Source: Spiroplasma endosymbiont of Labia minor (GTDB taxonomy: Bacteria > Bacillota_I > Bacilli_A > Mycoplasmatales > Mycoplasmataceae). Taken from it: DNA of 64,000 bases. The position numbers and the translations under genes were made by a program. Positions 28,842 to 36,899 of the stretch are shown piece by piece; the first letter of the stretch is position 1, and every line of letters begins with the position of its first letter. The stretch is from positions 186,001 through 250,000 of the forward strand of contig NZ_OZ026465.1 in assembly GCF_964019845.1 (NCBI RefSeq), written 5' to 3'. The notes under the pieces were generated by a model. That model did no database searches and had not been told where the DNA came from. It saw nothing but the letters and a program-made list of their open reading frames with translations.

Positions 28842-28908
28842 ATAAAATAATAACATTTCCATTGACTTTTATTTTTTGGAAATATTATTTAAAAAGGAGA
28901 TTATTTTA

Positions 28909-30264
28909 ATGAAAGTTATTGTATTAGGTTTAAACCACGCTGGAACAGTAGCGACTAGAACATTGAAGCGTTTAGATAAAAATGTTCAAGTTACAGCATA
29001 TGAAAGAAATGATGTCATTTCTTTTTTGGGTTGTGGAATTGCGCTATGAGTAAAAAATGAGGTTAAAGACCCAAAAGGATTATTTTATGCATCACCAGAA
29101 TTGTTGAAAAGTGAAGGTATAGATGTAAAAGATAATCACGAATGAGTGGGTATCGATAAAGAAAATAAAACAGTAAGTGTAAAAAATTTAAAAACAGGAG
29201 AGATATTTGAAGATAAATATGACAAATTGATAGTTGCCTCAGGTTCTTGACCAATTTGTCCACCAATTCCTGGAATAAATTTGGATAATATACAAATTTG
29301 CAAAAACTATTATCAAGCACAAGAAATAAAAGCAGCAAACGAGAATAAACAATTAAATAATATTGTTATTATTGGTGCAGGTTATATTGGTGTTGAATTG
29401 GTTGATGCTTTTGTAAGCGCTGGTAAAAATGTAGTATTAATAGATGTTGCAGATCGTATTATGCCTGCATATTATGATAAAGACACAACAGATGTTGTAG
29501 AAGATTTGATGAGAAAAAATGGCGTAACAATTGCCTTAAATCAAAAAGTTATTGAATTTAAAGGAAACGAAAAAGTTCAATTTGTAGTAACAGATAAAGG
29601 TCAATATGAAGTTGATTATGTTGTTTTTTCAATGGGAATTAAAGCTGAAACTGCTTTGTTAAAAAATGTTATTGATACAACAGATAAAGGCGTAATTAAA
29701 ACAAATAAATATATGCAAACATCAGATCAAGATATATATGCAATTGGTGATTGTGCTGAAGTTGAAAGTGCTATTTTAAAAGAAAATATGCAAATCGCAC
29801 TTGCAACAACAGCAGTGCGCTCTGGTATTATAGCTGCAATTAACATAATAAAAAATAACTCTTTACCTCAAATGGGATTTACAGGTGCAAATGCAATTTG
29901 CGTATTTGACTATAATATGGCATCTGTAGGATTTTCTGTAGAAATGTGTAAAAAATTAAATTTAGAATATGAAACTATTTTATTTACAGATAATGATCGT
30001 CCAGAATTCATGAGTACTTGTACTCCAGTAAATATTAGATTAATTTGAAATAAAAAAACCAGAAAAATAATCGGATCACAAATTTATTCAAAAGCTAATC
30101 ATACAGAAATGATTCATATGTTATCTCTTGCAATTCAAAAAGAATTGACCATTGATGAATTACCTCTTGTTGATATGTTTTTCTTACCACATTATAATAA
30201 ACCATATAATTTCGTTACATTAGCAGCCCTTGAAGCATTAGGATTAAATTATTTTAAAAACTAA
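28909..30264 (+). CDS. nox: NADH oxidase, flavoprotein
   Basis: Re-oxidises NADH with oxygen, usually to water in Mollicutes and lactic acid bacteria. 451 residues with an N-terminal FAD fold (VIVLGLNHAGT), the redox-active Cys42 in FLGCGIAL, a second Rossmann fold for NADH (IVIIGAGYIGVELVDAF) and the YAIGDCAEV FAD segment. It stands one base before lplA and upstream of the pyruvate dehydrogenase genes, whose NADH it would recycle. Coenzyme A disulfide reductase is a close relative, but the context favours Nox. Confidence 0.92.
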
Positions 30265-30265
30265 T

Positions 30266-31258
30266 ATGATAGAAGTATTTATATCTAATAGTAATAGTCC
30301 TTATTATAATTTAGCATTTGAAGAATATTTAGTTTACAGTTATAAAACTAAAAATCAGATTTTGTTTTTATGACAAAATGATGAAACAATAGTTATTGGA
30401 CGTAATCAAAATATACACGAGCAAATTAATTTTGAAAGTGTGCGAAAGAATGAAATAAATATCGTGAGAAGAAATACAGGTGGTGGAACTGTTTTTCAAG
30501 ATATGGGTAATATCTGTTTTTCATTAATTGATAATATAAAAGAAGATGACAAAATATTAATAAACAAAACGTTAGAACCAGTAATTAATTTTTTAAAAAA
30601 GGAAAATTTAAATGCTTATTTTGATGGTAAAAATGACATAAAAATAGATGGTTATAAAATATCTGGTAGTGCAGAACTTAAAACAAAAGATAAAATTTTA
30701 GTCCATGGTACGTTAATGTATGATGTAGATTTGTCAAAAATACGAGAATATTTATTATTAAATTCTACAAAAATGGAATCAAAAAAAATTAAATCTAATG
30801 TATCTGTGATTAAAAATATTTCAGATTTTATAAGTGTTAAAAAAAATTCACTTGATTTTTTAAATGATATGATTAATTTTTTTAAAACCCAATCAGAAAT
30901 TAAAATTATGTCAAATGATATTTTAAAAATAGATCAAATTCTTGAACAATCAAAAAATAAATATCAAAGTTGAGATTGAAATTACGGTAAATCATCAACT
31001 TTCAAAATTATTAAAGAAAAATATTTTCCTGAAATTGGACTAATACAAGTTAATTTAAATATAAAGAATGGTAAAATAGAAGACATTAAATTTTTTGGTG
31101 ATTTTTTAGGTTATGAAGGCACTGAAAAATTAGAAAATAGTTTAAAAAATTCTAAATATGTTAAAGAAATAATTTCTAAACAATTGGGGAAATTTGATTT
31201 AGAAAAAATATTTGCAAAAAAAATAACGAAAGATAACTTACTTGATTTAATTTTTTAA
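30266..31258 (+). CDS. lplA: Lipoate-protein ligase A
   Basis: Activates free lipoate with ATP and attaches it to the lipoyl lysine of the pyruvate dehydrogenase complex. 330 residues cover both the catalytic domain (RRNTGGGTVFQDMGN and KISGSAELKTKDKILVHGTL) and the C-terminal accessory domain. Starts one base after the nox stop and ends 12 bases before pdhA, so it belongs to the same transcription unit. Its likely target is the small lipoyl protein at 34179. Confidence 0.94.
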
Positions 31259-32375: not shown

Positions 32376-33377
32376 ATGGCAATATTTAATAATGTAAAGG
32401 CAATCACAAATGCACTTGATATTGCAATGAATAAATATGATAATGTTATTTGTTTTGGTGAGGATGTTGGATTTGAAGGTGGTGTTTTTAGAGCCACTCA
32501 AGGATTGCAAAAAAAATATGGTGTAAAACGATGCTTTAATTCTCCAATTTCAGAAGCAATGCTTGCTGGAGTTGGTTTAGGCATGGCTATTAGTGGATTG
32601 AAACCTGTTGTTGAATTACAATTTTTAGGTCTAGGTTTAACTTCATTGCAAAATATAATTACACAAATAGCAAGAATTAGAAATCGATCAAGAGGTAAAT
32701 ATACAGCATCTATGGTGATTAGAACACCATTTGGTGGTGGTATTAGAGCACTGGAACATCATTCGGAAGCTTTGGAAGCAATATTTTGTCATATACCAGG
32801 AATAAAGGTGATTTGTCCATCAACTCCATATGATATGAAGGGATTGTTACTTTCTGCAATTGAAAGTCCAGATCCAATTATATTTTTTGAACCCACAAAA
32901 TTATACAGAGCGTTTAAGCAAGATATTCCAGAAAATTATTATACAATTCCAATTGGAGAAGCATATAAAGTTCAAGAAGGTAAAGAAATAACTATAGTAA
33001 CATATGGAACACAAGTTGTTGATTCACAAAAAGCAATAAAGATGTTACAAGAAAAATATCCCAACGTATCAGTTGATTTAATAGATTTGAGAACAATTAA
33101 ACCATGAGACAAAAAAATGGTAATTGAATCTGTTAAAAAAACAGGTAAATTATTGGTTGTTCATGAAGCTTGTAAATCATTTTCTGTATCTGCTGAAATA
33201 ATTGCATCAATAAATGAAGAATGTTTTTCGTTTTTAAAAGCTCCAATGCAACGATGTACTGGATTCGATGTAATTGTTCCATATGATAGAGGTGAAATTT
33301 ATCATCAAGTTACACCAGAAAAAATTTATGATAAGTTAATTTTATTAACTAATTATAAAATGGAGGATGAAAAGTAA
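32376..33377 (+). CDS. pdhB: Pyruvate dehydrogenase E1 beta subunit
   Basis: E1 beta, 333 residues, partner of E1 alpha. Typical segments: FGEDVGFEGGVFRATQGL, FNSPISEAMLAGVG, RTPFGGGIRALEHHSEALEA and the C-terminal VTGFD-like RCTGFDVIVPYDR. The ribosome site AGAGGGCG overlaps the end of pdhA. The stop overlaps the E2 core start as TAATG. Confidence 0.94.
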
Positions 33378-34162
33378 TGTCTACATATTTTACAGAAGAA
33401 CAAATTAATAGTATTTTACAAAATATTGATATTAAATTTGAAGAAAAAGAAATAGCATTAGAATTTACAGAAGAACCAATTACAAATATTAGAAAAACAA
33501 TTGCTAGTGTAATGACATCAAGTTTACAGACTAATGCGCCATTTACTGGAATGCGAGATTTAGATGTGAGTGCGATTGTTGAATTAAGAGAAAAATTGCG
33601 AGGTTTCACATCAGCAAAAAATATTAAATTAACTTATCTTGCATTTATTGTCAAAGCTGCGGCATTGACAATTCAAAAAATGTCACAGATAAATATTAGA
33701 TCTAATTTTGAAGAAAACAAACTGATTCTTCTAAAAAATATTAATATTGGAATAGCAGTAGATACTGCTCGGGGATTAATTGTTCCTGTCATTAAAAATG
33801 TTGATAAAATGAGTGTTTATCAAATTGCAAGCAAAATTGAAGAATTAGCAAATAAGGCACGCGATGGGAAATTAACTTTAAGAGAAGTGAAAGATTCAAC
33901 TTTTACTATTACAAACTATGGATCTGTCAAACTAGAATATGCAACACCAATAATTAATCCCCCTAATTCAGCAATATTAGGTGTTGGAGGTATAAAAAAA
34001 ATTCCAGTATTTAATGATAAAAACGAAATTATAAGTACATATGTTATACCTTTTTCTATGACAGCAGATCATCGAGTAATAGATGGCGCTGAAATAGGTA
34101 GATTTTTAATAGAATTTGATAATTATATGAAAAATCCATTATTATTATTTGAAAAATTTTAA
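33377..34162 (+). CDS. PDH E2 acyltransferase core without lipoyl domain
   Basis: 261 residues comprising only the dihydrolipoyl acetyltransferase catalytic domain. Family E2 proteins are usually 400-550 residues with one or more lipoyl domains and a subunit-binding domain ahead of the core; here only about 35 residues precede it. The core is intact: TNIRKTIASVMTSS start, the NIGIAVDTARGLIVPV strand, TFTITNYG and the catalytic TADHRVIDGAEIG with His232 and Asp236. The lipoyl domain is encoded by the next gene as a separate protein. No peripheral subunit-binding domain is seen, so E1/E3 docking must work differently. Confidence 0.88.
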   Translation: MSTYFTEEQINSILQNIDIKFEEKEIALEFTEEPITNIRKTIASVMTSSLQTNAPFTGMRDLDVSAIVELREKLRGFTSAKNIKLTYLAFIVKAAALTIQKMSQINIRSNFEENKLILLKNINIGIAVDTARGLIVPVIKNVDKMSVYQIASKIEELANKARDGKLTLREVKDSTFTITNYGSVKLEYATPIINPPNSAILGVGGIKKIPVFNDKNEIISTYVIPFSMTADHRVIDGAEIGRFLIEFDNYMKNPLLLFEKF

Positions 34163-34178
34163 GTTAGGAGAAAATATT

Positions 34179-34502
34179 ATGTATAATGTAAAATTTACAG
34201 ATCTAGGAGAAGGTCTAATAGAAGGAAAAGTCACAAAAATTTATGTTAAACCAAATCAAACAATTAAAAATGGGCAAGAATTATTTGAAGTAGAAACAGA
34301 TAAAGTAACTTCAGATATTTATTCACCTGTGGCTGGTGTTATTTCTAAAATTTTAATTAAAGATGATCAAGATGTTAAAGTTGGTGACTTGATGATTGTT
34401 ATTGATGATAATTTAGAAAATAATAATATTGATGATGATGAAAATGCATCTGTTGTTGGTTCAACGCCAGTGTCAGATGAACTTTTACCACCAAGAAATT
34501 AA
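34179..34502 (+). CDS. Stand-alone lipoyl-domain protein of PDH
   Basis: 107 residues. Residues 1-78 form one lipoyl domain with the modified lysine Lys42 in ETDKVTSDI. The remaining 29 residues are an acidic tail ending VVGSTPVSDELLPPRN, which looks like the linker that normally follows a lipoyl domain in E2. So the two E2 parts seem to have been separated and their order swapped. TAGGAG lies 9 bases before the ATG at 34179. It sits between the E2 core and lpd genes and is the likely substrate of LplA. Confidence 0.88.
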   Translation: MYNVKFTDLGEGLIEGKVTKIYVKPNQTIKNGQELFEVETDKVTSDIYSPVAGVISKILIKDDQDVKVGDLMIVIDDNLENNNIDDDENASVVGSTPVSDELLPPRN

Positions 34503-34513
34503 AGGGGTACATT

Positions 34514-35926
34514 ATGATATCAGAAACAGTCAATAAATATGATGTAATTATTGTTGGGGCTGGATTTGGCGGTTACACTTGTGCGTTAAAATGTGCAAAA
34601 AGTGGTCTAAAAGTTGCTCTGATAGAAAAATTAAAAATTGGTGGTGTTTGTTTAAATGTTGGTTGTATTCCAACAAAAACATTTCTAAAATCTGCATTGG
34701 TTTATCGTGATTTTATTGACCGTTCAGCAAGCTTTGGATTAGATGTCAGTGGTGCACGTCCCAAAATTAATTGATTAAGAATGTTGGAAAGAAAGCAACA
34801 GGTTATAGATAAATTAGTTTCTGGCATGCAATTTATGGTTAAAAAAAATAATATTGATTATATAAACGGAGATGCAAAAACTATTACATCAAAAATAATT
34901 GAAGTTAATGAACAACAATATGAATGCGATAATTTAGTAATTGCTACTGGTTCATTACCAATAAAATTGAATTTACCAGGATTTGAAGATGCTCGTAAAG
35001 CAAATTTCTTAATTAATTCAACACAAATTTTGAATTTAACAGAATTACCTAAAACTTTAGTCATTATTGGTGGTGGAGTCATTGGTATTGAATTTGCAAA
35101 TTTATTTTCAGATTTAGATTGTGAAGTTTTTGTTATAGAAGGAGCTCCAAATATATTGCCAAATATAGATAATGAAGTTAGAAAGGAAATGATAAAAATC
35201 CTTAGCACACGTGGTAATTTACACTTAATTAATAATGCAAAAGTGTTAGCAATTAAAGATAACACAGTAATTTATCAAACAAATGATGGTAAAGAAGTAT
35301 CTCTGCACTCAGATTTATGTCTTGAAGCAATAGGTAGACACCCTGTAATTAACGGTTTTGAAAATATTGGCTTAAAATTTAATGATCATAAAGCCATTAT
35401 TGTTAATGAAAATTGTGAAACTAATTTAGAACATGTTTATGCAGTAGGTGATGTATTTGGTAAGGCAATGTTGGCACATGTAGCTCAACACGCTGGAATT
35501 GTTGTTGCCAATAAAATCGCGCAAAATAAAAATATTAGTACATTTAAAAATTTAGATTCAGAAAAAGTTGTAATTCCGGCTTGCATATATACATATCCAG
35601 AAATATCGATGATAGGCATGACAGAAGAGCAATTACAAAATGAACATATAGAATACAATTCCGCAAAATTTTTATTTACAGCATCTGGTAAAGCATTAGC
35701 AGATGATGCAAGTAAGGGTTTTATAAAAATATTATCTGATAAAAAAACCAAACTTATTTTAGGCGCACATATGATAGGCCATCGAGTAACAGAATTGATT
35801 TCAGAAATAGGTTTGGCTATGGATAATAATTTAACAATTGAAGATATTGCAAACACAATACATCCTCACCCAACTATATCTGAATCAATTGGGGAAGTTG
35901 CAGAAATGTTAGTAAGTAGAAATTAA
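34514..35926 (+). CDS. pdhD: Dihydrolipoamide dehydrogenase (E3)
   Basis: Re-oxidises dihydrolipoyl groups with NAD+. 470 residues. The redox disulfide is Cys46/Cys51 in GGVCLNVGCIPTK, after the FAD fold VIIVGAGFGGY. The NAD fold is VIIGGGVIGIEFANLF, and the C-terminal IHPHPTISESIGE holds the His-Glu pair. Unlike in some Mycoplasma species it has no lipoyl domain fused at the N-terminus. AAGGGG lies before the ATG. Confidence 0.95.
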
Positions 35927-35930
35927 AGTT

Positions 35931-36899
35931 ATGATTGAATTAAAAGAAATAGAACAATTTTTAATAAAAAACAGTATTAAAAAAAGAATAATTCTACCAG
36001 AAGGCGACAGTGAAAAAATTATAGATACTGCTAATTATTTACAAAAAAATAATATTGCAAAGCCAATTGTTATTTTTAAAAGTGAAACAGAAGTATCATC
36101 TAAATTAATGGCGAATTGTGAAATTATTTGTATAGATAAATATGATTTAAATTATTTAGCAAATGAATTATATTCTTTAAGAAAAGGAAAATTATCTTTG
36201 GAAGAAGCACAAGAATTGGTTAAACAACCCAATTACTTTGCAACAATGTTATTAAAGTTAAACTTCGCAGACTGCATGTTATGCGGAATAACTTATACTA
36301 CAGCAGACGTAATCAGACCTGCATTACAAATAATTAAAACAAATGCTAAAACTAAAATAGCTGCATCTACTATGATTATGAAAAAAAACGACGGAACTTA
36401 TTTATTTTCAGATTGCAGTCTAAATCTAGATCCAAATTCAGAAGAATTAGTGGATATTGCAAAATTAAATATTGAATTTGCAAAAAAAATGAAAATGGAT
36501 AAACCAGAATTGGCATTTTTAAGTTATTCAACAAATTCTTCTGGAGCAGGACCAGATGTTGACAAAATTAAAATGACTATGAAAATTATGGATAGTGAAA
36601 ACTTGCCATTTGTTTATGATGGCGAAACTCAATTTGATGCAGCATTTCTTAAAGACATAAGAAATAAAAAATATAGAAATAGTAAATTAACAAAAGAACA
36701 TCCAGATATTTATATTTTTCCTAACCTTAATGCTGGCAATATATCTTATAAAATAGCTGAATATATGGGCGGTTATGATGCAATTGGGCCTTTTATTATG
36801 GGCTTAAATAAACCCGTCAATGATTTATCAAGAGGTGCAAATTTAAAAGATATAATTTCAACCTCGTTAATAACAATTTTTCAAGCGTTTGAAATATAA
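35931..36899 (+). CDS. pta: Phosphate acetyltransferase
   Basis: Converts acetyl-CoA to acetyl phosphate for ATP formation by acetate kinase. 322 residues, normal length. Typical segments are RIILPEGDSEKI, CGITYTTADVIRPALQIIKT, SYSTNSSGAGPDVDKI and DGETQFDAAF. It starts 4 bases after the pdhD stop, with no strong ribosome site between, so coupling is likely. No ackA follows; that gene must lie elsewhere. Confidence 0.94.
   Translation: MIELKEIEQFLIKNSIKKRIILPEGDSEKIIDTANYLQKNNIAKPIVIFKSETEVSSKLMANCEIICIDKYDLNYLANELYSLRKGKLSLEEAQELVKQPNYFATMLLKLNFADCMLCGITYTTADVIRPALQIIKTNAKTKIAASTMIMKKNDGTYLFSDCSLNLDPNSEELVDIAKLNIEFAKKMKMDKPELAFLSYSTNSSGAGPDVDKIKMTMKIMDSENLPFVYDGETQFDAAFLKDIRNKKYRNSKLTKEHPDIYIFPNLNAGNISYKIAEYMGGYDAIGPFIMGLNKPVNDLSRGANLKDIISTSLITIFQAFEI

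Follow-up and report, generated by a model that had tools for sequence, protein, structure and literature searches.

The window, the whole 64,000-nucleotide stretch of DNA from the Spiroplasma endosymbiont of Labia minor analyzed here, contains an intact pdh operon whose open reading frames, read under genetic code 4, encode in order NADH oxidase, lipoate-protein ligase (lplA, just upstream of the E1a gene), E1a, E1b, a bare E2 core, a free lipoyl protein, E3, and phosphate acetyltransferase (Table 1). The genome is 984 kb and consists of one contig. The E1b and E2 core genes overlap by one base, which ends the E1b stop codon and begins the E2 reading frame, and this junction leaves no space for the missing ∼170 residues of E2. 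Gaps of 16, 11, and 4 bases separate the E2 core from the lipoyl gene, the lipoyl gene from E3, and E3 from pta, respectively, and the lipoyl gene does not share a reading frame with E3. The lipoyl gene is taken to start at the ATG at 34179, giving 107 residues; the listed 128-residue open reading frame begins upstream at a TTG. Shine-Dalgarno-like sequences (GGAGG/AGGAG/AAGGGG) stand ahead of the ATG in each of the E2 core, lipoyl, and E3 genes, and because a ribosome-binding-type motif precedes all three and every reading frame is open, a frameshift error is unlikely. A promoter scan did no better than shuffled sequences.

Table 1. Genes of the pdh operon (window positions) and the E2-like proteins encoded elsewhere in the genome.
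Feature	Position	Strand	Evidence
NADH oxidase (H2O-forming type), first in cluster	28876..30264	+	Best NCBIfam match NOXase_Strep NF046103, 486 bits, below the 600-bit cut-off
Lipoate-protein ligase LplA	30266..31258	+	TIGR00545 above cut-off
PDH E1 alpha (E1a), 367 aa	31271..32374	+	PF00676 E 1.2e-80; TIGR03181 404.6 bits, slightly below the 411 cut-off
PDH E1 beta (E1b), 333 aa, C-terminus NYKMEDEK vs NYKF-type in relatives	32376..33377	+	PF02779/PF02780; C-terminal comparison
Bare E2 catalytic core, 261 aa, His232/Asp236	33377..34162	+	PF00198 residues 29-258, E 2e-78
Free lipoyl carrier protein, 107 aa, Lys42, E3-type linker as tail	34179..34502	+	PF00364 residues 4-75, E 1.3e-18; linker comparison
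E3 dihydrolipoyl dehydrogenase, 470 aa, without lipoyl domain	34514..35926	+	TIGR01350 above cut-off; no PF00364
Phosphate acetyltransferase (pta)	35931..36899	+	PF01515, TIGR00651 above cut-off
E2-like proteins, 938 and 588 aa	L006:7064-9880 and L007:7322-9088, outside window	-	PF00198

The sole Pfam domain found by hmmscan in the E2 core protein is the acyltransferase core of PDH E2 (PF00198), with neither a lipoyl domain (PF00364) nor a subunit-binding domain (PSBD, PF02817) on the same chain, as an earlier note on this DNA had claimed. The catalytic residues lie in DHRVIDG, and residues 1–28, the first part of which is new sequence, stand in place of the lipoyl domain and PSBD. The match to PRK11857 (dihydrolipoamide acetyltransferase, 308 positions) reaches 194 bits, far under the cut-off of 378, and a single-sequence AlphaFold model, made with no alignment, has a pLDDT of 39.5, too low for the fold of the core to be judged, and was given no weight. 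The adjacent free protein carries a PDH-type lipoyl domain with Lys42 in an ETDK turn (VETDKVTS), and it and one divergent E2-like protein are the only PF00364 matches across the genome. No E3-binding match was obtained in either protein when both were searched with the three profiles, a check that the earlier note had proposed. E3 begins MISETVNKYDVIIVGAG and is likewise free of a lipoyl domain by hmmscan, again in agreement with the note; the domain fused to E3 in mycoplasma-type PDH is here a separate upstream gene. It is rather probable, as far as gene content and domain architecture can tell, that this is a working PDH whose parts became separate proteins, with neither lipoyl domain nor PSBD left on E2 and with the lipoyl domain of E3 turned into a gene of its own.

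The domain architecture was read at 45 pdh-type loci of relatives. Within the family, lipoyl-PSBD-core followed by lipoyl-E3, which is the usual order in close relatives, occurs 12 times, and lipoyl-PSBD-core followed by E3 occurs 11 times; PSBD-core followed by lipoyl-E3, with the lipoyl domain on E3 only, is found in G001, G002, and G009 of the family and in G054 of another family. The succession core, lipoyl protein, E3 in one operon was seen in this genome (G000) alone among the loci read, and the expectation that the split would be conserved in relatives was thus not borne out within the family, although the same composition recurs in dispersed form in G048 and G059, which belong to another family of the order. 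These two genomes encode a core of 233 residues, a lipoyl protein of 78 residues, and a lipoyl-less E3 of 473 residues and have no PSBD, as here; they differ in that E1, E3, and core-lipoyl lie at three places, the free protein has no tail, and an additional linker-like open reading frame precedes the core. Since G048 and G059 are closely related (about 93–97% DNA identity at the pdh loci) they are counted as one event, and, judged from sequence, their end state is one reached independently of this genome. The additional open reading frame of 80–81 residues (L076:3753-3995 (+), L077:3750-3995 (+)) resembles a lipoyl linker (VVGTLKVSNDLLDF) with a charged end, and may be either a remnant or a substitute peptide for docking. 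In a separate observation, G018 (genus g11; L055) has pdh proteins that cluster with members of genus g5 on very short branches, unlike those of its genus-mates, and horizontal transfer of that pdh operon is likely.

The earlier statement that no subunit-binding domain is present holds for the proteins and for the genome: PF02817 has zero matches in the whole 984 kb, the same search being positive in 51 of 60 family genomes and, order-wide, in 42 of 60 relatives, and a profile built from the relatives' own PSBDs finds no match in this genome either. This absence is one of sequence similarity, and a docking role for residues 1–28 of the E2 core or for the carrier's acidic tail is conceivable. 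In Gram-positive-type PDH the E1 heterotetramer has a single PSBD at its two-fold axis (PMC2663715). Among family relatives that bear a PSBD, E1b ends in Phe in 21 of 26 cases (Tyr in 3, Ile in 1, Thr in 1). The C-terminal Phe324 of E1-beta reportedly participates in the PSBD contact in the Geobacillus structure. Here E1b reads NYK-MEDEK, the stop codon having shifted downstream to overlap the E2 start, with the addition of four residues (EDEK) and loss of the conserved C-terminal Phe; in G047 and G048, which have no PSBD, E1b ends QLLK and ELYKK, respectively. Two exceptions with a good PSBD yet other endings, G044 (YLA) and G053 (YPV), indicate that the residue is not a strict marker, and its loss therefore supports but does not prove the loss of PSBD docking. 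The terminal branch of this genome takes up 9.1% of tree length in the E2 core tree and 9.9% in the E3 tree, the longest in each, and ranks second in the trees of E1a and E1b (6.1–6.4%), as would be expected if the E2/E3 contacts had relaxed with catalysis retained. Alterations here of columns invariant among relatives are raised in E1a, E1b, and E3 alike, so that no single lost interface is picked out.

Docking via new surfaces is the main rival to a diffusible carrier: the complex would still be assembled through residues 1–28 of the core, through the acidic tail of the carrier, or through an E2-like paralogue serving as an adaptor of the E3BP type. Besides the E2 core, PF00198 identifies two E2-like proteins in the genome, A (938 residues) and B (588 residues), which have a lipoyl-like N-terminus with Phe, by sequence reading, at the position of the lipoyl lysine. 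A long low-complexity segment follows, and at the E2-like C-terminus the DHRxxDG motif is changed to DQRILDA in A and to NEDLINL in B, with loss of the catalytic His. A degenerate lipoyl domain joined to a dead core is the general layout of eukaryotic E3BP (protein X), and this likeness, together with the new sequence at the start of the core, speaks for continued assembly. The paralogues differ from E3BP, however, in having no PSBD by Pfam, no lipoyl lysine, and a long low-complexity linker, and in being retained without PDH: they are equally present in relatives beside an ordinary E2 and are kept in the PDH-losing genomes G006, G032, G062, G063, and G066, which have neither pdhC nor an intact E3. 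Assembly by new contacts is thus possible but doubtful.

A full-length E2 elsewhere in the genome, which the earlier note had named as contrary evidence, exists in form only, as these same two PF00198 proteins without lipoyl lysine or catalytic His; as backup E2 they were ruled out because those residues are gone and their retention is independent of PDH. Every one of the 42 family genomes with four or more MreB-family matches encodes at least one such E2-like protein and none of the 18 with three or fewer does, although the absences may represent one clade, and the paralogues are possibly, from this distribution, a structural protein of helical spiroplasmas. The list of internal-structure proteins of S. 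eriocheiris includes no such E2-like protein (PMC5289999), and no studies of the Spiroplasma paralogues were found in the openly available literature searched. In G032 the PDH remnant (L102, G032:C1:268000-286000) is an E3 piece with two TAA stops, beside which both dead E2-like proteins are kept.

Decay of the PDH system toward pseudogenes would account for the faster evolution of the E2 core and E3 and would have parallels in related genomes that have lost PDH, among them G032 with its broken E3 only. It is nonetheless quite unlikely, as all genes are open, catalytic residues, ribosome-binding sites, and lplA are present, identity to the nearest relatives is 66–70% for E1a/E1b and 52% for E2/E3, and the same composition has been maintained between G048 and G059.

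The earlier note had described an E2 split into halves in swapped order, a description that the comparison with relatives does not support. The free lipoyl gene occupies, directly after the E2 core, the position that the N-terminal lipoyl domain of E3 has in close relatives, and the free protein ends VVGSTPVSDELLPPRN, nearest to the E3 linker of G002 (VVGSTPVSNDLLPPR), with LLPPR in its tail comparable to NDLLPPR in that E3. Among family members, 9 of 15 E3 linkers but none of 15 E2 linkers have a Pro following VVGxTPVSNxxx (Fisher P 0.0007). The tail is thus an interdomain linker, as had been proposed, though of the E3 type rather than the linker of E2, and a lipoyl gene in the E3-domain position with an E3-type linker explains the reversed order without any swap. 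A lipoyl-domain tree was dropped as a means of deciding between E2 and E3 origin because the two copies within a genome evolve in concert, and the linker was used instead; the lipoyl domains of E2 and E3 are 84–100% identical in one genome while diverging between genomes, so that position and linker, not the domain itself, are the grounds for an origin from E3. The near-identity of the copies at L045, L047, L049, L053-L055, L057, L065, L067, L069-L071, and L048 apparently reflects gene conversion that continues between two genes of the same operon. The E3 proteins of G029 and G033 begin MKNKINIVEDE... and MTNKNDNEENA..., which apparently are leftover linkers without a lipoyl domain, and detachment or loss of the lipoyl domain of E3 seems to be a recurrent event. 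The alternative that the E2 gene was cut and its own lipoyl part re-inserted behind the core is compatible with the linker-like tail and with the occurrence of the VVGxTPVS motif in the E2 linkers of relatives as well, but it is very unlikely, since it calls for a transposition, the E3 of relatives already bears a lipoyl domain at the exact position, the linker end is of the E3 type, and E2 in G001, G002, G009, and G054 lost its lipoyl domain without any move, a precedent for simple loss here. A sequencing or assembly error is hardly credible, for although collapsed repeats are known to arise from near-identical copies such as the E2 and E3 lipoyl domains of a single genome, collapse between them would have removed the E2 core, which is kept, frameshifts are at odds with clean junctions bearing ribosome-binding sites and with lipoyl and E3 genes in different frames, and no PSBD occurs anywhere in the one-contig genome. 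The PDH locus is, on this comparison, a real variant of an arrangement already fluid in mycoplasmas.

Separation of the parts of a working PDH would have started from an ancestor that most likely had lipoyl-PSBD-core as E2 and lipoyl-E3 as E3. In this lineage the lipoyl domain and PSBD of E2 would have been lost in a change separate from the origin of the carrier, which would have arisen when the N-terminal lipoyl domain of E3, together with a portion of the linker, was detached as a gene of its own. LplA would lipoylate Lys42 of the carrier, which would be reductively acetylated by E1, diffuse to the E2 core for transfer of the acetyl group to CoA, and be re-oxidized by E3, as the H-protein is in glycine cleavage. 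E1 and E3 would be undocked from the E2 core or weakly held via surfaces other than a PSBD. By analogy with the H-protein, PDH here most likely works via a diffusing carrier; the earlier proposal of a diffusible arm is upheld in the broader form of a diffusible or otherwise docked arm, given a bare core, no PSBD, and a lipoyl-less E3.

Parts of this arrangement have been described before. In Mycoplasma hyopneumoniae the lipoyl domain is on PdhD (E3) and off E2 (Matic et al. 2003, Gene 319:99), and lipoylation of PdhD was later demonstrated, the lipoate being attached by lipoate-protein ligase (PMC7873978). Both systems have a lipoate-protein ligase and no lipoyl domain on E2, but the domain is covalently part of E3 there and a separate protein here, where E2 also has no PSBD, the M. 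hyopneumoniae E2 being compared by lipoyl position only. The E2 of G001, G002, G009, and G054 has a homologous core and no lipoyl domain, but keeps the PSBD, with the lipoyl domain attached to E3. G047, whose M. pneumoniae/genitalium type is deduced from the PdhC start printed as a primer in PMC4433191, has no recognizable PSBD and an E1b without the C-terminal Phe, but its lipoyl domain is still fused to the E2 core (384 residues). The glycine cleavage H-protein and LbpA of sulfur oxidation (PMC6067878) are stand-alone lipoyl carriers for separate enzymes, but they belong to other families and reactions, whereas the carrier here is a PDH-type lipoyl domain. Searches of the openly available literature brought up neither a stand-alone PDH lipoyl protein nor a PDH in which core, carrier, and E3 are all separate. 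A lipoyl domain on E3 and an E2 without recognizable PSBD are therefore already known, and the division of all three parts into individual proteins is, within that literature, apparently new.

PDH is the textbook case of substrate channelling by a swinging arm. On balance we lean toward the view that a PDH without a multienzyme complex, with no PSBD or tethered arm and a free carrier serving three separate enzymes, has arisen two or more times in Mollicutes. Such a natural PDH, in which the arm, the core, E1, and E3 are individual chains that have no docking domain, would be a ready test of the need for tethering in cells, and the intermediates in sister genera would mark a stepwise route for taking the PDH complex apart.
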